A stretch of 30,725 nt of DNA from a virus, in IMG/VR virus record IMGVR_UViG_3300037264_000605, positions 1 through 30,725 of that record, one strand, 5' to 3'. Both the position numbers and the translations under genes were made by a program. The first letter of the stretch is position 1, and each line of letters begins with the position of its first letter. A model generated the notes under the pieces. The model had not been told where the DNA came from, made no database searches, and saw only the letters and a program-made list of their open reading frames with translations. Of the stretch, positions 1,846 to 30,081 are shown one piece after another.

Positions 1846-2661
1846 ATGGCACGCGTCAATGTCGATCAGAAGGCTCTCACTGACCCAAGGTTCTACCGGT
1901 TAGGAATCGATCTTGGGGCCGAGCCCGAGGTCGCCCACGCGGTCGGGCTCTATACCATGATCCTGGTATGGTCTGAGTGTATCCAACGCGTCGTCTACGT
2001 TCTCGACGGCTGGGTACTCCAATCGATAACCAAGAAAACCAACGGGCACGAGATTCTGCTCTCCGCGGACCTCGTTGTAAAACTAGCGAACGACCGTTTT
2101 CGCGTGAGAGGCGCACGTGAACGATGCTTATATATGAAGGAAGCGCAGGAAAGAGCGCGAGTTAACGGCCAAAAAGGAGGTAGACCAAGAAAACCAACGT
2201 TGGTTTCTACAGAAACCAAAGTCGAAAGCTCTTCTCTTACTCTTACTCCTACTCTTAGTACTTCTGAGTCTGAGGTAGTTTCCAAGGCTTCTACTACCAC
2301 GCTAACAGTTGTCGATTCGCCAAAAAACGGCGAAGTCGACGGCGCGCTCGTCCGTATCCCCAAGAAGCCACCCGGAACCCGAGCCAAGAAAAGCCCACTC
2401 GTGAACGGGGCGCGCGTCGAGCGGATGCAGGAAGATTTCATGAAGCTTTACGAGTTCTATCCACGCCACGTAGGACGTGACGCAGCGTGGCGGGCTTTCG
2501 TGAAGCTCGACCCCGACCTCGAGACGCTACAGGCCATAGTCGCCGACGTCAAGAAACGCACGGACGCCGGGGACTGGATGCCCGACGACCCCGAGCGCGT
2601 CCAGTACATCCCCCACATGAGCACGTACCTGAACCAACGGAGGTGGACCGATGAGGCGTAG
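1846..2661 (+). CDS. Phage replication initiator / replisome organizer-like protein
   Basis: This encodes 271 residues from ATG 1846 with AGGGGG six bases upstream. The N-terminal 100 residues (KALTDPRFYRLG, then AVGLYTMILVW) resemble the winged-helix N-terminal domain of phage replisome organizers. A basic NGQKGGRPRKP motif at about 107-117 is common in these proteins. Residues about 118-165 are a Ser/Thr-rich linker. The C-terminal region (FMKLYEFYPRHVGRDAAWRAF, then IPHMSTYLNQRRW) matches the YPR...A...F...yIP...TyLN..RW pattern at the C-terminus of many phage replication proteins. It probably binds the phage origin and recruits helicase-loading factors. The linker DNA has lower GC than its surroundings and carries origin-like repeats (separate entry). 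The next gene overlaps its 3' end by 11 bases. Confidence 0.75.
   Translation: MARVNVDQKALTDPRFYRLGIDLGAEPEVAHAVGLYTMILVWSECIQRVVYVLDGWVLQSITKKTNGHEILLSADLVVKLANDRFRVRGARERCLYMKEAQERARVNGQKGGRPRKPTLVSTETKVESSSLTLTPTLSTSESEVVSKASTTTLTVVDSPKNGEVDGALVRIPKKPPGTRAKKSPLVNGARVERMQEDFMKLYEFYPRHVGRDAAWRAFVKLDPDLETLQAIVADVKKRTDAGDWMPDDPERVQYIPHMSTYLNQRRWTDEA
2029..2300 (+). other. Candidate replication origin inside the replication gene
   Basis: ACCAAGAAAACCAACG occurs exactly at 2029-2044 and 2184-2199 but in different reading frames (TKKTN versus PRKPT), so the identity is not explained by protein conservation. The second copy runs into a 16-bp perfect palindrome, AAACCAACGTTGGTTT (2191-2206). TTGGTTTCT (2200-2208) is repeated inverted as AGAAACCAA (2211-2219). 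A partial match, AACCAACGG, is at 2632-2640. The next 80 bases are pyrimidine-rich with CTTACT repeats. G+C counted by hand over 2181-2300 is 50 of 120 bases, well below the surroundings. Lambda-type origins lie inside the initiator gene with iterons followed by an AT-rich unwinding region, and this layout is similar. Confidence 0.5.
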
Positions 2662-2944
2662 CCTGGTTGTCCTCAGCGACCTATCGCGCGTATCGGCAGA
2701 CGACCTACTGCGCCGGCTGATGGAAGCTCGAGCCGGAAACCTCGCACGACCCGACTACGAGGAACCCACGTTCAAGTGCCCCGCATGCTGCGACACCGGG
2801 TTCCTAACCAGTAGGCACCAGAACGGACTGGTGTACGGATCAAAGTGCTCGTGCCTCTTGGCCGAAATAGCCAAGAAACCAAAGAGGCAACTCAAACTAC
2901 GTGGCCGCCAGAATGTCGATGACGACGGGATGCCGGTCTTTTGA
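2651..2944 (+). CDS. Zinc-ribbon hypothetical protein next to the replication gene
   Basis: This encodes 97 residues from ATG 2651, with GGAGG at 2639-2643. It overlaps the replication gene by 11 bases, so the two are probably co-translated. The central part has KCPACCDTGF (Cys pair) and later SKCSCLL (Cys-x-Cys), a CxxC...CxC arrangement typical of a small zinc ribbon. A similar Cys pattern (CPxCxGxG...CxC) occurs at the N-terminus of DnaC-like helicase loaders and in DnaJ-type zinc domains, but no ATPase domain follows here. The C-terminus is Lys/Arg-rich. A replication accessory role is plausible from context only. The next gene starts at TTG 2941, overlapping this stop. Confidence 0.7.
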   Translation: MRRSLVVLSDLSRVSADDLLRRLMEARAGNLARPDYEEPTFKCPACCDTGFLTSRHQNGLVYGSKCSCLLAEIAKKPKRQLKLRGRQNVDDDGMPVF

Positions 2945-3216
2945 CCCAACCCACCCCCATCGAACCACCCATATCCACCCGCGAGTTGGCCCAGCACCTG
3001 CGGCGGATGATGGAACTCGCTGGCGAGACCCCGCATGGCCTCGCTGCGCGCCTGGGCGTCTCTGTGGCGACGATCGACGCCTGGCTCTACGGACGGCACC
3101 TGGAAAAGGTCGCGACGATCCTGGGGGCGTTTGAGGCCCTTGGGTGCGTGGTGAAGATTCTGCCCATGACAAAACGTCCGGACACCCCTTGCGTTCTGAG
3201 GAAAACGCATATGTAA
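2941..3216 (+). CDS. Small helix-turn-helix DNA-binding protein
   Basis: This encodes 91 residues if started at TTG 2941, which overlaps the previous stop; an ATG pair at 3007/3010 would give about 70 residues, and the start is uncertain. The segment ETPHGLAARLGVSVATIDAWLYG reads as an XRE/Cro-type helix-turn-helix: a helix with Leu-Ala-x-x-Leu-Gly-Val-Ser, a turn, then a recognition helix with TIDAWLYG. The following helix (ATILGAFEALGCVVKIL) has the shape of a short XRE-family C-terminal part. It may regulate early or late transcription. A terminator-like hairpin follows its stop, so it could be the last gene of the early operon. Targets cannot be inferred. Confidence 0.7.
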   Translation: MTQPTPIEPPISTRELAQHLRRMMELAGETPHGLAARLGVSVATIDAWLYGRHLEKVATILGAFEALGCVVKILPMTKRPDTPCVLRKTHM

Positions 3217-3224
3217 TACGCCCG

Positions 3225-3248
3225 AGCGCACCAACGCGCTTTTGATTT
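3225..3248 (+). terminator. Weak intrinsic terminator candidate
   Basis: AGCGC (3225-3229) and GCGCT (3236-3240) form a 5-bp stem with a six-base loop, followed by TTTGATTTTAT. Stem and T-rich tail have the order of a Rho-independent terminator, although the stem is short and the tail is interrupted. It lies between the HTH gene and the methyltransferase gene, in the only sizeable gap in this part. A second short stem, GCGTT/AACGC at 3191-3195/3204-3208, lies just inside the HTH gene. Confidence 0.4.
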
Positions 3249-3263
3249 TATCGCGGGGTGGCG

Positions 3264-4562
3264 ATGGACGTCGTGGAAGTCAGCGTCTCCGACCTCGCCA
3301 CAATGGGCGCGCCGTACAACCCCCGACGCATCGACGATCACGACATGGACGCCCTACGGCGATCCCTGCGGTACTTCGGCACCGTGGAGCCGATTGTCGT
3401 CAATCGCCGTTCTGGGCGCATCGTCGGCGGCCACCAACGGGTCAAGGCGGCTCAGGCCGAGTCGATGGCGTCCCTACCGGTGGTCTACGTCGACCTCGAT
3501 GACCCATCCGAGAAGCAGCTCAACATCGCGCTGAACCGCATCCACGGCGAATGGGAGCCGGAGCTACTCTCGAGCCTACTGCGCGAGCTCGAGGCGGAAG
3601 GCGCAGACCTGGCGCTCACGGGGTTCGCGGATTTGGAGTTGACGAGACTGTTAGCCTTGGCGAATGAGGGGATGACTGATCCCGACGAAGTGCCACCTCT
3701 CGATGTTGTGACACACGCGCGGACGGGTGACGTTATTCTGATGGGTGGTCACCGACTTGTTTGTGGCGATTCGACTGACACTGCGGTTATAGAATCGGCG
3801 TGCTGCGATCGACGTGCGATGTTAGTGGTGACGTCTCCGCCCTACAACTGCGGCATCGACTACGACGTCCACGACGACTCGATGAGTCCCGACAAATACC
3901 TCGAGCTCATCCGTAGAGTCGCCGCAGCGGTTGTCGATCACTGCCTCGATGATGGCGGCGTGTGCGCCTGGAACGTAGGCGTCACCCCGAAGACAATGCA
4001 CACAAGGCACGCCGCGATTCTCGAGGGCGTCGGGCTCAAATATCTGCGCCAGATCGTGTGGCGTAAGTCCGGCGTCGCATATCCGATCTGGCAGTTCACG
4101 ACGGCTGAATGCAAGGCGCGACGATACACGCCGAACTATCAGCATGAAATCGTTTTCCTGTTCTCGAAGGGTGACGTATCTGAGGGTCAGCCTGGATCAT
4201 CGCAGCCAGACGACGATCTGTACTGCGACGTATGGGACATCGTACAAAGTCAGGCGACGGTGGGCCTCAAGATTGCTGTTAGGAAAGGCTCGAATTCCAT
4301 GACTCACGGATCGCACAATATTGCGAGCCATCCGGCGGCGTTCCCAGTGCAGGTGCCGTCGGGAGTGATACGTCACATGGCGGCAAAGGGTGATCTGGTT
4401 TTCGATCCATTCGCCGGATCTGGTTCATCGTTGATTGCCTGCGAGATTCTGGGCCGCACGTTCGCAGGTGTTGAGATGTCGCCCGCTTACTGCGACGTGA
4501 TCGTCAAACGCTGGCAGGACTTCACAGGCAAGAAGGCCGAAGGGTGGCGAGGCAATGCCTAG
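3264..4562 (+). CDS. ParB-like domain fused to N4/N6 DNA methyltransferase
   Basis: This encodes 432 residues. ATG 3264 is chosen because GGGG (3254-3257) is well spaced; GTG 3258 in the same frame has no ribosome binding site. Residues 1-110 are a ParB/sulfiredoxin-like domain (NPRR near 19, then IVGGHQR with GGHQR at 55-59). A linker leads to a beta-class DNA methyltransferase: TSPPYN (190-195) is the catalytic motif IV and DPFAGSG (381-387) is the AdoMet-binding motif I, in the permuted order typical of the beta class. SPPY is common in N4-cytosine enzymes but also occurs in N6-adenine ones. This fusion is widespread in phages and usually lacks a partner restriction enzyme; it probably protects phage DNA. 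It sits just upstream of the packaging genes and overlaps the next gene by 8 bases. Confidence 0.9.
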   Translation: MDVVEVSVSDLATMGAPYNPRRIDDHDMDALRRSLRYFGTVEPIVVNRRSGRIVGGHQRVKAAQAESMASLPVVYVDLDDPSEKQLNIALNRIHGEWEPELLSSLLRELEAEGADLALTGFADLELTRLLALANEGMTDPDEVPPLDVVTHARTGDVILMGGHRLVCGDSTDTAVIESACCDRRAMLVVTSPPYNCGIDYDVHDDSMSPDKYLELIRRVAAAVVDHCLDDGGVCAWNVGVTPKTMHTRHAAILEGVGLKYLRQIVWRKSGVAYPIWQFTTAECKARRYTPNYQHEIVFLFSKGDVSEGQPGSSQPDDDLYCDVWDIVQSQATVGLKIAVRKGSNSMTHGSHNIASHPAAFPVQVPSGVIRHMAAKGDLVFDPFAGSGSSLIACEILGRTFAGVEMSPAYCDVIVKRWQDFTGKKAEGWRGNA

Positions 4563-18621: not shown

Positions 18622-19619
18622 GCGGTTATCGGCGGGACCCGGTCATCCGGATCATTCCTCGGAACTCGCCCGAGGAAGTCTACTGGTTCACGGACAACCT
18701 AACCGACGTCGGTTCGCATACGCGGATCATGCTGCACTACGAGCTGATCCAGCAGATGCGCGAAGACATCAACCGATCGTTGCGACCGATCATCTATGGA
18801 TGGCGGCCGGAGGTTACGATCGATTGCGTGATATGGAGTATGACGGATCAGCTATTCCTCTCAAGGATAGAGGAGGCGCTCTCCGACCGCGATGGGTATG
18901 ACGTGTTCCTCTCCATTGACGGTGGGGTCGTCTATCGCCGCGTCATCCTCATGGAGGGCGCGGACGCGAAGCCGATTTCCGGAAAGACGGTCGTCGGGGC
19001 GTCATTCAGCCTCGCCATGAAATGCGTCGACTTGATTTCGCGCCGCCCGGCAATGATGACGGACCAAGGCACGGGCGGCGAACTCATCGAAGATGGCGGC
19101 TTCGAGCAATGGGACACGGCCGCTCAGCCGCGCGCATGGGTGACTGGCTCTGGGGTCGGTACCGTCGCCCAAGAGCTTACGATCATCCGCTCCGGACTTT
19201 CGTCCGCGAAGGTGACGCGCTCAGATGGTGCGACCTTCTTCTCTTTCCAGCAGCGCAACTCGGCAACGAGTATCGAGCCCAGACCTGGCCATTGGTACCG
19301 TGTGCTGGCGTATGCGCGCGGGTCGATAGACATCCCTGCCGGAGGTAGCGGCCCGTTCCGTATCCAGGTCTTCAATGTCAGCAGGAATGAGAGCATCGGG
19401 CCAGACGGCAAGACCATCGGCGGCGACCTCTCGATAACCGGCGTGCTGGCCGCCACGTGGAGCGGAGTCGAACTGTACTTCAGGGTCCCGTCGAACTGGT
19501 TGCCTGCGAACGAGGTCTATTTGCGCTTCGTGGGATATTGGGCGGCTGGCGAATCGCTCTATTACGATGATGCCTCGGTTTACGGTCCGGTATTGCGTCC
19601 AGGGTACGCAACTTGGTGA
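18618..19619 (+). CDS. Tail protein with C-terminal carbohydrate-binding-like domain
   Basis: This encodes 333 residues from ATG 18618, overlapping the hub gene stop. The N-terminal half (RDPVIRIIPRNSPEEVYWFTDNL, then VIWSMTDQLFLSRIEEALSD) looks like a tail tip attachment domain. The C-terminal half, from ELIEDGGFEQWDTAAQPRAW, follows the pattern of CBM4/9-like jelly-roll modules: NGGFE-x-W start, SGLSSAKVTRSDGA, YRVLAYARGS, and a closing LYYDDASVYG strand. Such modules bind polysaccharides, so it may bind a host capsule or cell-surface glycan. Order in the distal tail region supports a receptor-contact role. Confidence 0.75.
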   Translation: MSGYRRDPVIRIIPRNSPEEVYWFTDNLTDVGSHTRIMLHYELIQQMREDINRSLRPIIYGWRPEVTIDCVIWSMTDQLFLSRIEEALSDRDGYDVFLSIDGGVVYRRVILMEGADAKPISGKTVVGASFSLAMKCVDLISRRPAMMTDQGTGGELIEDGGFEQWDTAAQPRAWVTGSGVGTVAQELTIIRSGLSSAKVTRSDGATFFSFQQRNSATSIEPRPGHWYRVLAYARGSIDIPAGGSGPFRIQVFNVSRNESIGPDGKTIGGDLSITGVLAATWSGVELYFRVPSNWLPANEVYLRFVGYWAAGESLYYDDASVYGPVLRPGYATW

Positions 19620-19623
19620 CACC

Positions 19624-22600
19624 ATGAAGCGCTTACTCATCGCTCTCGCCCTCCTGATCGGAGCCAGCGTTGACGCCGCCGTGGAGACAACCACGATCAC
19701 CGGGAAGGTGCTGATCCCTAACGGGAGCGGGAACCCCTACACGGCCGGGACCGTGACCGTTACGCTATCGACTGCCGGGACGGCCGTAGATGGCGGATCT
19801 ACGGTCATCGTCTCCGGCAGGACGACGGCAACGATCGCGGCCGATGGGACTGTATCCTTCGCGGTAGTACCAAACGATGTCATCTCCCCAGAGGGAACGT
19901 ACTACATCGTTAAGTTCAGCCCCACGGCGCCAACGTCGGCGAGCTGGACCGAGAACTGGATCGTCGTTACGACGCCGGACCCGATCACCATCGGGGCTGT
20001 GACTAGGGTTAACACACCGCCCGGGATAGCCGCCCCGGTATCGACTATCCAGGATGAGGGCGCCGATCTAGCGAAGAGGACGAAGCTCAATTTCGTCGGT
20101 GCTGGTGTGACCTGTCTGGATTCTGCGGGCCAGAGCAGGACCGATTGTACTATCACGTCTGGCGGCGGCGGCGGGACGCCTGGTGGCGTCAACCAGGACG
20201 TGCAGGTCAACGTTTCGTCGTCGTTCGGCCCGGCACCTGGGTTCACCGCAAACACGACGACGGGCCAGGTCGCGACCAGATCGCTCGCGATCCCGAACAG
20301 CTTTACGACTTCCGGTGCCGGTCTTTACTTCACCGGCCCCGCGGGTGCTGTGCCGTGGATGACGAACGTCAGCTCGGCTCACGCGTCATACGCCGGGACG
20401 GGCGATGCCTCGGCGGTCGAAGCGCTCAACATCTTCCTGGGCATCAATGCTGGCCCGGCCACGATGCCTTCCGCAACGCAGGTCCATGAGGGGAAAGAGA
20501 ACATCGGGATCGGACCGCATGCGCTCGATGCCCTCACGCTGGGGAACGCAAATACCGCCATAGGTCGGCAGTCGATGACGGGGCTAACGACCGGCCAGTA
20601 CAACGTCGGCATCGGCGGTGGCACGCTTCAGGCCGCGACGACAGCGTTCTCTAATACCGCACTTGGGCAGTCCGCTGGGGTCGATACGACGAGCGGAAAC
20701 AACAACGTCTTCATCGGCGACACGACAGGATCTCCGATCCAAACCGGAGATAAGAACACGATGGTCGGGTCGGCGTCCTATTCGAACGCGGCCGACTCTC
20801 AGAACCGCATCACGCTGGGTTACGGCGTCCTGGCCGACACGGACAAGAAGGCGACCATCGGGAATACCGATACCGAGGCTGGTGGGGCCGGTCTGGGTAC
20901 GACGCTGGTTGAGCTGCGCGGTGCGGTCGCGGTGCGCGATCAGGCGGACGGGTTCAAGGCTACGGTCAGCCCGGCGCCGCTCACAGCGGATCGGGCGCAC
21001 TCGCTCCCGAATGCGGCTGGGACTTATGCGATCACGCAGAGCGCAACCGGGGTACCGGATACTCTCGTCTGTACGAACTGTGTTGACGCGGTGGACGTTG
21101 CCGCGGACGTTGCGACACAGGCCGAGATCGATGCGAAACTGAACGACACCGGAGACACCGGGACCGGAACTTATGACTTCTCCGGTTCTGTGTTCGAACT
21201 CCCCAACGGCACGGCACCGACTGGTACGGATTGTGACGCCGCAGGTGAGGCAGGACGCGTGTTCATCGACACCGACGCCACGAGCGGGCAGCGGGTCTAC
21301 GTCTGCGAGGGCGTCTCGGGCTGGATTCTTCAGGGCGGCGCTGGCGGCGGCTCACTCGCGACGCTCTCCGACGTGACGCTCACGACACCGGCGACAGGAG
21401 CGACCCTCATCAAGAGCGCCGGGAATTGGGTGGATGGACAGCTCGACCTCGCCGACACCGATGCCGTTACCGGGCTGCTTGCGGCCGCCAACGTCGGGAC
21501 CGGGCTTACGGACGCTCAGGTATCAGACACTCTCACGTCATCGTTATTTGTGGGTTCCGGCTCGACGACGACTGCGATCGACCTTGCGACTGCGGAGGTT
21601 GCAGGTTCGCTTGCGGATGCAAGCGTCTCGGATACGCTGACGTGCTCGTTGTTCGTGGGCTCCGGCTCGACGACGACAGCGGTAGACCTGGCGACAGCGG
21701 AGGTCGGAGGTGACCTTCCGTTTACAAGTGTGGCTCAGATCGCAACCGACAGATTGCTCGGACGCGATACGGCCGCTACAGGCGACATCGAACAACTCAC
21801 CGTCGGTGGCGGCATCGAGTTCACTGGGACTGGCATCCAGACTTCGGCGTTCACCGGCGATGTCACGAAGACCGCTGGTGGGACTGCGACCACGATCGCG
21901 GCCGACTCGGTCGCATTGACGACGGACACGACGGGGAGCTACGCCGCCGGAGACGCCGAAGCCGGGGCCGCGCTGACCGGGGACACCGCGACGGCGTTCT
22001 TTACCTTGGGCGCGCTCGAGGTCGCGCGCGGTGGCACCGGAGCAGCCCCAGGGGCAGACGACCAGGCGATCGTCTCCGACTCGACGTCGGCCGCGACCTG
22101 GCGGGCCATCCCCAACTGCGTCGCCAACAACATGCTGACCTACACCGCCGCAACCAACACCTTCGGCTGCGACGCGGACGACGGCGCCGGCGGCGGCGCT
22201 CCTATCGGCGTTGACTACCTCGTCGGGACGGCCGATGCCACGTTGACTTCCGAGATCGTAGTCGGGACCACGCCAGGCGGTGAGCTTGGGAATACGTGGG
22301 CCTCTCCGACGATTGACGATTCGATCACGGTGGCGGGCTGGACGCTCACGACCGCAACGATCACCGATCCGATCCTGGACATCCTCGACTCGGCCGCACC
22401 AGCGCCTACGGTCGAGGGGCGCGTGGAATGGGAGAGTGACGACGATCATCTAATCGTCGGCGATGGCACCGCTCAGGTTGAATTCGTACCCGCCGAAGAC
22501 GTGAGCGGTGATGCAACTATGACCGACGCGGGCGTTCTGACGATTGCGGCGAGCGCCGTGACCCTGACGACTGACGTCACCGGGATTCTTCCTGTCGCGA

Positions 22601-25596
22601 ATGGCGGCACCGCCCTGAGTTCTGGAACGAGCGGCGGTATTCTCGGGTACACCGCGACCGGGACGCTCGCATCCAGCGCCGCGCTCGGAGCCGGGAACAT
22701 CGTAGTCGGAGGAGGCGCGGGCGCGGTCCCGACTTCGGTCACGGCTGGCGCGACGACGACGATCCTGGTCGGCGGTGGGGCCTCCACGGCCCCGGTATGG
22801 ACGACGGCGACAGGTACGGGCGCTCCCGCGCGCGGAACATCGCCGACGATAACGACCCCGGTTCTCGACTTCACGCAGAGCGCCGCTCCGGCTCCGACCG
22901 TTGAGGGCCGTGTCGAATGGGAAACGGATGACGATCATTTGATAATCGGTGACGGCGCCGCTCAAGTCGAGTTCGTCCCGGCCGAAGATGTGAGCAGTGA
23001 CGCCACGATGGATGACGCCGGCGCCCTGACGATCGCGGCTAACGCGGTCGCCTTGACGACGGATACGACGGGAAACTACGTCTCCAGCGCGACGGCGAGC
23101 CAGGGATTGCTACTGACCGGAGCCGAAGGTGCATCGCTCGGCCTCGCGACGTGTACCGATGGTCAGATCCTCAAGAATAGCGGTGGGACATCTTGGGCCT
23201 GCGCCGCTGATTCCACCGGCGGCGCGGGAGCATGGACCGACGCCGACCCGATCGCCACGGCGACATCAACGCGTGATGTTCAGATTGGCCCGACGTTCAA
23301 CAATACCGCCAAGCTGTCGGTCGATGGAGATGCCGATCAGATTCAACTATCGGTCCAGGGGAACTCGACTCAGACGACGAGCCTCATGGTGTTGGAGAAC
23401 AGCGCCGGTACGGACCAACTCAAGGTGTCGAATACCGGGAACGTGACTTACGGATCGGGAGCGGATGCCGACCTCACGCTGCTGACGGTCGATCAGGGGA
23501 CAGGGACAGACCCAACGGTTCTCTGGCAGGATTCCCTGGGCCGGTTCAAATTCACAACTTCGAACGTCGCGTTTGATGATCCTGCGACTACGGCGACTCG
23601 AGGCTTAGAGTGGTCTGTTACCAGTCCGGTCTCGACGAAGCTCTACGCCGGTGTGTGCAGCGCCGACTTCAACAGTAACCGCGACAACATCTTCGCATGG
23701 TCCTATAACCGGGATTGTAACGGCACCAGGATTGATACGGCCGAACACTCGACACAGGTCCAACTGGAAACGAGCTTCGATTCCAGCGCCACCGCGGGGC
23801 GGCAGGACTACGTCGAGTGGAATTGGGATTTCACGACGGCGGCCGGGGCGCAGTGGAGGCCGTTCGGGGGTGGGCTCTACATCCCGGCGAACTCCAACGC
23901 TGGGCATGCGACGTTCGATTTCAAGCCTGACAACAGGAACAGCGGAGCCGACTTCTCGCTTCAGCTCGACTGGCCTCGGGTGAACTTCAACCGCATCTCA
24001 TCTCTTGACGATCCGCTCAATGCTGGCATGTCGACGTTTGCACACTCGAACGAGTTCCCGACGGGAGCCGGGACCGAAGGGCACCAGACGATACTCTCGA
24101 TCGATCACACCGACACGCGTTCGTTCAACTTCACCTCGATCATAGGGTCCGTCGACTTCAGCGCGACCGGGACGACATCGGCGATCTTCCTGGAAACCGC
24201 TGGATGGTTTAAGGCCAAGTTTACCGGGACTACGGTCGGAAGGACCATAGACTCGATCATCGGCGTCAAGTCTGACGTCAGCCTACTCGCCACCTCGGCC
24301 ACGACTGGTAACTCGACGAATCACGGGTATCTCTTCAAGGGGCATTTCGATCTGTCCGGGACGAACACCCAATGGGCGGATGGCGCGGGGCTCTACATCG
24401 ATACGCCGACAGCGCCGGGAGCGAGCACGTCTTACCCCAACGCCTCGGGCATCCACATCGCGGATCAGACGTTCAACAATGCCGCGTTCGGCGGACCGTC
24501 CTACGCCGTGGTCATCGACTCGCAGACGGTCAGCGACGGCGGCGAGGGGAACCTCGTCATGCTCGGGACCGGGTACAACCACGGGCACGTGGTTCTCGGG
24601 ACGACCCACCTTTGGGAACAGACTGCGGGCACGCTGCGCTTCAAATCCGGCGCTCCAACATCGGATGGCGACGGCACGGCGATCGGCGGAGGTGGTGGCG
24701 GCGATTCGATCACAGTCGACACCGTGGCCGTGGTCGACCCCGATTTCGCATCGACAGCAGATATCGACTTCATCAACACCTCGAATGTCATCACGGCGAA
24801 CGTCAACGCGAATGCGGTGGAGCTAACGACTGACACGACCGGGAACTACGTCCTCGATGTCGCCGACGGCACGGGCATCGATGGTACGGCGGCCGCGGAG
24901 GGTGCGACCTACACGCCGACGCTCGATCTCACGGAGATCAACTCGACAACGTTCGGCTCCGGTACCTTTACGGCGCTGACGTTCGATGCTGGGGCGACCG
25001 ATCCGACGTTCACGATGGCATCGAACAGCGTAACCGTAACGAACGCCGCGACCTTCAACTTCGTGAATGACTCCATCTCGACAGCCGACCTCGGGACGGA
25101 ACTCAGGTCGATGTATTGGGGTGCCGGATCGATGGCGCTCGACGCCGGATTCTGCATCGTCGCGACCGAGCAGGTTCTCAACGCAGGCCCGAAGGAATGG
25201 GCATTCTCATGCGCCGACAACGCGGCCAGTATCTTCTACGGGTCGACCGTCATGCCGGATTCCTGGAACGCCGGGACGGTGACGTTCGAATTGAGCGTGT
25301 TCCACGGGACGACGGAGGCGATCACCTTCGCCGGAGACTTCTCCGCGCAGTGCCGAGGGGCCGGCGAAGTCCCGAGCAGTACCTGGGGGACCGCCGTGCA
25401 GGGCGACGTCGCGATCACGACCGCGAATCAGATCGTCAACACGACGACGGGAGCCGTCACGGCGACGGGCACATGCACCGCCGGCGATTTCCTGTTCTGG
25501 CGCTTCGTCATCGACTCCGGGACGTTCTCCACGAACGCGGCCAACTCGAAGGTGCTCGGCGTCAAGATGGAATACACCGCGAACATAGGGGACTGA
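19624..25596 (+). CDS. Giant distal tail fibre protein with N-terminal signal peptide
   Basis: This encodes 1990 residues from ATG 19624, with GGTGA upstream. An earlier ATG (19567) lies inside the previous gene and has no ribosome binding site. Residues 1-19 form a Sec-type signal peptide (MKRLLIALALLIGASVDAA). A beta-sandwich-like domain (about 20-130) follows, then a Gly-rich linker with GTPGGVNQDVQVN (about 180-195) typical of tail fibres. Repeats with NTAIG/GNNNVFIG motifs lie at about 305-405. Duplicated segments follow: a 35-residue tandem pair and a 65-residue dispersed pair, and recurring LTTDTTGNY motifs. The end (WNAGTVTFELSVFHGTTEAI...GVKMEYT) is a beta-rich domain commonly seen at the end of metagenomic tail fibres. 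It probably forms a trimeric receptor-binding fibre. A signal peptide on a tail protein is unexpected. Confidence 0.88.
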   Translation: MKRLLIALALLIGASVDAAVETTTITGKVLIPNGSGNPYTAGTVTVTLSTAGTAVDGGSTVIVSGRTTATIAADGTVSFAVVPNDVISPEGTYYIVKFSPTAPTSASWTENWIVVTTPDPITIGAVTRVNTPPGIAAPVSTIQDEGADLAKRTKLNFVGAGVTCLDSAGQSRTDCTITSGGGGGTPGGVNQDVQVNVSSSFGPAPGFTANTTTGQVATRSLAIPNSFTTSGAGLYFTGPAGAVPWMTNVSSAHASYAGTGDASAVEALNIFLGINAGPATMPSATQVHEGKENIGIGPHALDALTLGNANTAIGRQSMTGLTTGQYNVGIGGGTLQAATTAFSNTALGQSAGVDTTSGNNNVFIGDTTGSPIQTGDKNTMVGSASYSNAADSQNRITLGYGVLADTDKKATIGNTDTEAGGAGLGTTLVELRGAVAVRDQADGFKATVSPAPLTADRAHSLPNAAGTYAITQSATGVPDTLVCTNCVDAVDVAADVATQAEIDAKLNDTGDTGTGTYDFSGSVFELPNGTAPTGTDCDAAGEAGRVFIDTDATSGQRVYVCEGVSGWILQGGAGGGSLATLSDVTLTTPATGATLIKSAGNWVDGQLDLADTDAVTGLLAAANVGTGLTDAQVSDTLTSSLFVGSGSTTTAIDLATAEVAGSLADASVSDTLTCSLFVGSGSTTTAVDLATAEVGGDLPFTSVAQIATDRLLGRDTAATGDIEQLTVGGGIEFTGTGIQTSAFTGDVTKTAGGTATTIAADSVALTTDTTGSYAAGDAEAGAALTGDTATAFFTLGALEVARGGTGAAPGADDQAIVSDSTSAATWRAIPNCVANNMLTYTAATNTFGCDADDGAGGGAPIGVDYLVGTADATLTSEIVVGTTPGGELGNTWASPTIDDSITVAGWTLTTATITDPILDILDSAAPAPTVEGRVEWESDDDHLIVGDGTAQVEFVPAEDVSGDATMTDAGVLTIAASAVTLTTDVTGILPVANGGTALSSGTSGGILGYTATGTLASSAALGAGNIVVGGGAGAVPTSVTAGATTTILVGGGASTAPVWTTATGTGAPARGTSPTITTPVLDFTQSAAPAPTVEGRVEWETDDDHLIIGDGAAQVEFVPAEDVSSDATMDDAGALTIAANAVALTTDTTGNYVSSATASQGLLLTGAEGASLGLATCTDGQILKNSGGTSWACAADSTGGAGAWTDADPIATATSTRDVQIGPTFNNTAKLSVDGDADQIQLSVQGNSTQTTSLMVLENSAGTDQLKVSNTGNVTYGSGADADLTLLTVDQGTGTDPTVLWQDSLGRFKFTTSNVAFDDPATTATRGLEWSVTSPVSTKLYAGVCSADFNSNRDNIFAWSYNRDCNGTRIDTAEHSTQVQLETSFDSSATAGRQDYVEWNWDFTTAAGAQWRPFGGGLYIPANSNAGHATFDFKPDNRNSGADFSLQLDWPRVNFNRISSLDDPLNAGMSTFAHSNEFPTGAGTEGHQTILSIDHTDTRSFNFTSIIGSVDFSATGTTSAIFLETAGWFKAKFTGTTVGRTIDSIIGVKSDVSLLATSATTGNSTNHGYLFKGHFDLSGTNTQWADGAGLYIDTPTAPGASTSYPNASGIHIADQTFNNAAFGGPSYAVVIDSQTVSDGGEGNLVMLGTGYNHGHVVLGTTHLWEQTAGTLRFKSGAPTSDGDGTAIGGGGGGDSITVDTVAVVDPDFASTADIDFINTSNVITANVNANAVELTTDTTGNYVLDVADGTGIDGTAAAEGATYTPTLDLTEINSTTFGSGTFTALTFDAGATDPTFTMASNSVTVTNAATFNFVNDSISTADLGTELRSMYWGAGSMALDAGFCIVATEQVLNAGPKEWAFSCADNAASIFYGSTVMPDSWNAGTVTFELSVFHGTTEAITFAGDFSAQCRGAGEVPSSTWGTAVQGDVAITTANQIVNTTTGAVTATGTCTAGDFLFWRFVIDSGTFSTNAANSKVLGVKMEYTANIGD
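21520..21729 (+). repeat. 105-bp tandem duplication within the tail fibre gene
   Basis: Two adjacent 35-codon units (21520-21624 and 21625-21729) encode VSDTLT[SC]SLFVGSGS, then TTTA[IV]DLATAEV. The protein units are nearly identical over the first 27 residues, while many codons differ at the third position. The duplication is therefore old enough to have accumulated silent changes, or the residues are under selection. Confidence 0.8.
22390..22584 (+). repeat. 65-codon dispersed repeat in the tail fibre gene, copy 1
   Basis: This segment encodes SAAPAPTVEGRVEWE through LTTDVTG. A second copy of the same length lies at 22879-23073. By direct count 56 of 65 residues are identical, while many third codon positions differ. 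It includes the DDDHLI[VI]GDG motif typical of repeated beta units in fibres. Confidence 0.8.
22879..23073 (+). repeat. 65-codon dispersed repeat in the tail fibre gene, copy 2
   Basis: This is the second copy of the 65-residue unit (SAAPAPTVEGRVEWE through LTTDTTG), matching copy 1 at 22390-22584 in length and at 56 of 65 residues. It is followed by a fresh GNY motif (LTTDTTGNY) that recurs several times in the fibre. Confidence 0.8.
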
Positions 25597-29279: not shown

Positions 29280-29425
29280 ACCCCGCCGACTGCAACCAGT
29301 GGGACGCCATCGCCGAAGCCGCGCTCAAGATTTGGAAGGGCGGCAGGCTTGAACTGGTCGGCGCGGTCCTGGTTGGCATCGTGTTCTGGCGGAAGCCATG
29401 GTTTCGTGATGCGGGGAAGACGTGA
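29276..29425 (+). CDS. 49-residue single-helix membrane peptide
   Basis: ATG 29276 overlaps the stop of the previous gene. The product is MNPADCNQWDAIAEAALKIW followed by a hydrophobic segment, LELVGAVLVGIVFW, and a short basic end. It looks like a one-helix membrane peptide, fitting a group of small lysis or exclusion proteins. The stop TGA overlaps the GTG start of the methyltransferase gene (GTGA at 29422-29425). Its size makes the call uncertain, but both ends are tightly coupled to its neighbours. Confidence 0.55.
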   Translation: MNPADCNQWDAIAEAALKIWKGGRLELVGAVLVGIVFWRKPWFRDAGKT

Positions 29426-30081
29426 AACCTTACTACGAGCGCGACGGGATCACGATTTATCACGGGGATTGCCGGGACGTGTTGCCGTCACTCGCCGGTA
29501 TCGGTTGCGTCATCACTGATCCGCCTTACGGTGCTGGAAGGGACTTTGAGAACGACGACGGAACGCCGGTCGCGTTTCTAACCGAAGTGTTTTCCGCCAT
29601 GTTCGCGTCTTGCAAGGATGACGCCTTCCTGATTCACGATTGGTCCCGTCAGCGCGTTGAGTCCATAAGAGAGTTTCGAGGCGAATGGAAGTTCCTCGAC
29701 CTTTTGGCCGTTACGCAGGAAAACACGATGGCGCATTGTCGTGTCGGATACGACGTGTTCCAGATCAAGTGTCTGTACTCGAAGGGTGCGCCCAAGATCG
29801 CAAGGCGAGGATGGAACCTCTACAAAACCTCCAGGGTGGCGTCGGCGGAAAAGTTCATTCACCCAACGACAAAACATCTCGACGTGTACAAGATGGTTGT
29901 TACTCAGTTTGCTCACGCCGACGAGACGATACTTGACCCGTTTGTCGGCAGTGGGACAACGCTTGAGGCCGCCAAGGCTAAGGGCCGCCGCGCCATCGGC
30001 ATCGAGATCGAGGAGCGGTACTGCGAAATCGCGGCGAAGAGGCTTGAACAGCGCGTCTTGTTTCCTGTGGCGGCACTGTGA
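29422..30081 (+). CDS. Solitary DNA N6-adenine methyltransferase, beta class
   Basis: This encodes 219 residues from GTG 29422. Catalytic motif IV is TDPPYG (about 33-38) and the AdoMet-binding motif is LDPFVGSGTT (about 172-181). The order IV before I places it in the beta class, and DPPY favours N6-adenine. HPTTKHL before motif I is like the HPTQKP element of this family. There is no ParB domain, unlike the methyltransferase at 3264-4562, and no restriction enzyme alongside. It is short with little space for a target recognition domain. It probably modifies phage or host DNA to evade restriction. Its position among lysis-region genes is late. Confidence 0.85.
   Translation: MKPYYERDGITIYHGDCRDVLPSLAGIGCVITDPPYGAGRDFENDDGTPVAFLTEVFSAMFASCKDDAFLIHDWSRQRVESIREFRGEWKFLDLLAVTQENTMAHCRVGYDVFQIKCLYSKGAPKIARRGWNLYKTSRVASAEKFIHPTTKHLDVYKMVVTQFAHADETILDPFVGSGTTLEAAKAKGRRAIGIEIEERYCEIAAKRLEQRVLFPVAAL

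Follow-up and report, generated by a model that had tools for sequence, protein, structure and literature searches.

Does this phage begin its replication inside the gene for its own initiator? The question is raised by 30,725 bp of linear viral DNA with 62% GC, the IMG/VR record IMGVR_UViG_3300037264_000605 (the whole stretch is called the window below), in which an initiator gene carries repeated, palindromic and weakly paired DNA. A handful of model phages are known to start replication within a gene. A lambda-like plan of this kind had been proposed in the initial annotation, and it is supported, though not proven, by repeats at a conserved place behind a protein hinge, by an adjoining weak tract and by a positive lambda control. 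We consider it probable from these sequence comparisons that approximately 2184-2300, in the linker codons of the initiator, is the replication origin of the phage and works like a lambda-type in-gene origin, since the DNA features exceed what the protein demands and their position is conserved. GC skew gives no guide to the origin, as it rises almost through the whole fragment; no terminal repeats were found in the window, and the record may be incomplete.

The initiator gene and the DNA behind its hinge

The initiator gene (1846-2661, plus strand) encodes 271 aa comprising an N-terminal domain, a GGRPRK hinge, an unstructured linker and a C-terminal replication-initiation domain. The C-terminal half matches phrog_270 (E 2e-13), phrog_9474 (E 2.9e-13) and phrog_9327 (E 2.8e-11), whose annotations name primosomal or replication initiation proteins, and this domain is of the phage replication-initiation type. 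Pfam gave no match at E up to 1, hence none to the lambda O family, and none of the PHROG matches is named O-like. A tblastn search against named phages gave 49 records, of which those among the matches listed align in the C-terminal part only. A single-protein search of viral_contigs and genome_contigs found no close relatives, and a sequence search of solved structures found no match.

A structure model built from 22 sequences displays a helical N-terminal part that continues as a long helix up to residue 110, a stretch without secondary structure (residues 111-184), and a helical C-terminal domain in which most of the model's confidence lies (a model from 2 sequences was too poor for use). 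The DNA-binding fold of the N-terminal domain stays putative because that part is modelled at low confidence. The 22-sequence model had no significant match among solved structures; its matches among viral predicted structures (E up to 0.001), which have low TM, include helix-turn-helix proteins and a putative replisome organizer.

The hinge codons (2176-2193, plus strand) are nearly invariant in alignment A3 and form a landmark common to other phage initiators. They end the N-terminal part of the protein, and the candidate origin site starts there. The 16-bp sequence ACCAAGAAAACCAACG occurs at 2029-2044 and again at 2184-2199; the copies lie 155 bp apart and are therefore in different reading frames of the gene. 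The second copy runs into the 16-bp palindrome AAACCAACGTTGGTTT (2191-2206), the perfect core of a 21-bp near-perfect palindrome, AGAAAACCAACGTTGGTTTCT (2188-2208), which we propose as the main binding site. A further arm, AGAAACCAA (2211-2219, plus strand), is inverted relative to 2200-2208 and is a proposed half-site. The 16-bp repeat, the 16-bp palindrome and the inverted pair had been reported before and are present as described. The sites of 2188-2219 stand directly after the hinge, in the linker codons between the two domains of the initiator. The distant copy of ACCAAGAAAACCAACG (2029-2044, plus strand), a half-site without a palindrome, lies in codons of the N-terminal domain and so falls outside the conserved post-hinge place. 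A similar sequence, CAAGAAACCAAAGAGG, with AAACCAA at 2876, occurs on the plus strand at 2871-2886 in the next gene, 55 bp before a helix-turn-helix (HTH) gene, and is possibly an extra or regulatory site.

Protein conservation had been judged insufficient to explain the 16-bp repeat, and this stands: none of 4000 synonymous shuffles, in which protein and codon usage were kept, produced a direct repeat of that length, and a Markov model of the whole window expects 0.01 such repeats within 200 bp. A 16-bp palindrome arose in 0.3% of 4000 synonymous shuffles of the initiator gene; the Markov model expects about one per window, where two are observed, and the palindrome is therefore notable for its position, not for its existence. 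The motif AAACCAA has four sites in the initiator gene against 0.57 expected (P 0.001, synonymous shuffles), out of six in the 30.7-kb window; only two lie elsewhere, one of these in the next gene. Scored by 8-mer repeats alone, the 150 bp after the hinge take 11th place out of 348 coding stretches in the window. Taken singly, the window makes a modest case, and the argument is carried by the comparison with other genes.

The sites are overlapped and followed by weak DNA. The low GC content given earlier for 2181-2300 (50 of 120 bases G or C) is correct and understates the tract: no other 100 bp of the window are as unstable as 2181-2280, which lie 4.6 SD from its mean, and the 60-bp minimum of nearest-neighbour stability for the whole window lies at 2204-2263. 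An easily unwound tract hence adjoins the sites, and we propose 2181-2280 as the unwinding tract. The CTTACT-type repeats noted within it could be read directly as four six-base units, CTTACT, CTTACT, CCTACT and CTTAGT (2236-2259, plus strand). The low GC content results from synonymous codon choice: over the first 120 bp of linker codons, GC at third positions is 0.30, a value as low as which none of 400 synonymous shuffles gave, and in the rest of the gene it is 0.69.

Relatives, sister phages and the replication module

If relatives kept the protein and lost the repeats, an origin at this place would be doubtful. Two remotely related contigs that share the N-terminal domain, L007 and L093, instead keep palindromic repeats and a weak tract directly after their GGRP(R/K)K codons. 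L007 was picked up by its terminase, which is 52% identical to that of the window. Its initiator (2223-3158) is 29% identical to the window protein over the N-terminal domain and has GGRPRK in common with it. Directly after the hinge follow four 24-bp palindromic repeats of the type GAAAACCCCTAAAGGGGTTT and then a tract with TAGATCTTGATCTT repeats; all AAACCCC/GGGGTTT motifs in the 15.7 kb of L007 fall within the post-hinge region, and immediately behind the hinge the stability of the DNA lies 4.7 SD below the mean of the contig. The N-terminal domain of L093 is 29% identical to that of the window over 100 aa (E 2e-7), and its linker contains GGAAACCCATGGGTTTCC followed by a GATAAGAGAAGAGAAGATAAGAGAAG tract. 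A scan with the L007 protein found no match other than L007 itself, and no similar DNA was found in named phages.

When aligned at the hinge, the near-perfect palindrome of the window (AGAAAA-CCAAC/GTTGG-TTTCTAC) falls on the first palindrome of L007 (AGAAAA-ACCCCT/AAAGGGG-TTTCTAC). The outer arms are equal, while the core differs on both sides with its symmetry kept. A pattern of kept arms and changed core is how the sites of a diverging DNA-binding protein would look. The depressed third-position GC is likewise found in both relatives, equally low in none of 400 shuffles for L007 and with p 0.005 for L093. Because these values lie below those of synonymous shuffles, the DNA of window-type linkers, and not the protein alone, appears to have been shaped. 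By the same shuffles the drop was not found in L089 or L090, two other hinge loci.

Sister phages provide the opposite comparison. The terminases of L003 and L002 are 81% and 84% identical to that of the window. L003 has a DnaB-like ATPase gene (2100-3566) where the window has its initiator, and positions 1-160 of L002 apparently retain the end of a gene of this type. A whole replication module has been exchanged between the window and these close sisters. The 16.1 kb of L003 contain no AAACCAA, and the 8.3 kb of L002 contain two widely separated copies; as the cluster is missing where the initiator is replaced, the sites go with the initiator and not with the structural genes. The terminase-based sisters (L002-L005, L008) were retained for contrast only, as they carry a different replication gene or end short of the region.

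Apart from the replication genes, the window has two DNA methylase genes, one fused to a ParB-like domain (3258-4562) and one at 29422-30081. The L003 methylase gene (1290-1943) lies next to the replication gene of that contig, and its last part is similar to the window's 29422-30081 methylase.

Repeats after the hinge in sixty phage genes

IMG/VR was scanned for NG(K/Q)KGGRP(K/R)K codons irrespective of repeats, and a set was drawn from the matches listed; genes long enough on both sides of the hinge were kept and dereplicated to 60, which include the window, L007, L089 and L090, all of which came from other searches. The null consisted of 500 synonymous shuffles, with significance at 0.05. 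In these 60 genes from the matches listed, 745 direct 8-mer repeats fall within the first 150 bp behind the hinge versus 131 expected (sd 21), as do 117 inverted repeats versus 48 (sd 9); repeats there are significant in 42 genes and not in the other 18. The flanking stretches of the same listed-match genes differ from this: the 150 bp before the hinge contain 35 direct repeats versus 21.5 (sd 5.7) and 51 inverted ones versus 70, with no gene significant, and the 150 bp following the post-hinge stretch contain 49 versus 33 (sd 7.5) and 81 versus 71, with five genes significant. Duplication of linker codons in frame is not the whole cause, because out-of-frame direct 9-mer repeats are also in excess after the hinge (128 versus 5.9, sd 3.6; same 60 genes from the matches listed).

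The post-hinge excess among these listed matches holds in 36 DUF1376, 13 DUF6291, three window-type and eight other genes (Pfam itself counts 36 DUF1376 and 16 DUF6291 genes in the set). The linker shows the largest repeat excess of all coding stretches in 32 of the 60 listed-match loci, and averaged over the set, DNA stability reaches its minimum in stretches that begin about 30 bp past the hinge. Lambda O served as a positive control: in its gene the same test, run as a sliding scan, was significant only where stretches hold or adjoin the known iterons.

The DUF1376 and DUF6291 hinge proteins, which fall into PHROG primosomal and replication initiation families, share with the window initiator the hinge, a repeat-bearing linker and, in part, the C-terminal domain. 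They differ in the N-terminal domain: that of the window, L007 and L093 matched no Pfam family, including the DUF1376 and DUF6291 models. No NCBIfam family covers the hinge-protein set. We lean towards the view that the GGRPxK hinge codons mark the origin in a large set of phages, and that DUF1376, DUF6291 and the unnamed N-terminal domain of the window are origin-binding domains, each reading the iterons of its own linker. Across unlike initiator domains the comparison gives one rule, in which the hinge is followed by repeats and these by weak DNA, and it points to a function for two Pfam families that lack one. If the hinge is such a landmark, origins become predictable from sequence in phages known only from metagenomes, and those of environmental phages would be open to prediction and test. 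The phage with the origin predicted here is uncultivated, and its initiator domain is unnamed. As in-gene origins are already known, what is possibly new is the marking of likely origins by the hinge in DUF1376 and DUF6291 proteins; a search of the open-access literature, in which DUF6291 was not among the topics, found no such link.

The motif NGKKGGRP(K/R)K also ends many short proteins of about 50-100 aa with no linker after it (L092, L097, L102, L121 and others). The motif itself may touch DNA in the manner of an AT-hook.

Probable origin function and alternative readings

The arrangement resembles that of lambda, where palindromic sites lie in the linker codons of gene O with an AT-rich tract beside them; the Stx-phage versions of this origin likewise lie in gene O (PMC7466680). 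The 24-bp site spacing of L007 is close to the 20-24 bp of lambda. The window differs from lambda in the sequence of its sites, in the lack of a recognised P-like loader and in having no O family match. It also has fewer sites (the near-perfect palindrome, the arm next to it and the distant half-site) than lambda or L007 with four each, which counts against an origin. Also against it are the 11th place of the linker by repeats, the 18 hinge genes without significant repeats, the low confidence of the modelled N-terminal domain and the lack of a recognisable loader beside the initiator. The SPP1 origin oriL lies within gene 38 and includes an AT-rich unwinding element (PMC6316719), so that, likened by description, both systems combine origin repeats inside the initiator gene with AT-rich DNA. 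In TP901-1 and Tuc2009 the origins are placed inside the replisome organizer genes (as cited in PMC8965321), and like the window these phages have repeats within the initiator gene. TP901-1 Rep has no GGRPxK hinge and in the same test gave a weak repeat signal, at aa 76-125; it was dropped as a yardstick for the repeat test.

By analogy with lambda and SPP1 (PMC7466680, PMC6316719), the initiator would bind the palindromic sites of 2188-2219 through its N-terminal part (about aa 1-116), and strain from the bound complex would open the weak tract beside them (about 2200-2280). The C-terminal domain would then bring in the replicative helicase, directly or via a loader. Few structural demands are made on the linker, which leaves its codons free for both binding sites and a melting tract. 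Pfam and PHROG searches recognised no helicase loader beside the window initiator. L089 has a DnaC-like loader next door to its initiator, and the gene after the initiator in L090 and L007 encodes a DUF6475 domain, the L090 gene also matching a helicase loader weakly; the corresponding gene of L093 looks alike by eye.

Palindromes are typical of operators, and those of the linker might serve the initiator or the HTH protein (2941-3216) in this way, with the origin elsewhere; the HTH gene lies 720 bp downstream and is preceded by the similar sequence of 2871-2886. We regard this as unlikely, as the sites lie inside a gene and not at a promoter, the region has about as many promoter-like matches as expected by chance, the same place is rich in repeats in unlike initiators, and an operator needs no weak DNA tract. 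Operator and origin roles could, however, coexist. Another reading is a minus-strand transcription terminator formed by the inverted pair 2200-2219, where a scan calls a stem with a T-rich tail behind it. Just 3 of the pairs in this stem are G-C, the region contains 7 such matches versus 3.4 (sd 1.7) in shuffles, and the recognisable genes around it are on the plus strand, which together make a terminator most improbable.

It is also conceivable that the repeats have no function as DNA and are a by-product of a fast-evolving, low-complexity linker subject to short duplications and biased codons. Linkers are indeed prone to indels, and in-frame repeats are visible in the protein of some relatives. 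The excess nevertheless survives synonymous shuffling, including that of inverted and out-of-frame repeats, and the symmetry of the palindrome is kept through changes in both arms between the window and L007. We therefore hold such a by-product to be very unlikely, and prefer an origin in the linker codons.

Several further features of the window were observed. Directly after the initiator gene, in the place of the helicase loader of relatives, 2651-2944 encode a small Cys-rich protein (CPACCDTG...CSC) without a Pfam match, which by eye resembles a DnaI-type loader reduced to its zinc part, with no ATPase. The gene immediately ahead of the initiator (1037-1750) encodes a CoiA-like protein that includes a nuclease-like domain. 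At 755-794, where the open reading frame 770-1036 starts, GCACGATGAA is repeated head to tail in three and a half copies, possibly a regulatory array or a slippage site. A single open reading frame of 2009 aa (19567-25596) contains internal repeats (17 bp at 21556 and 21661) and possibly encodes a tail fibre or a similar protein.
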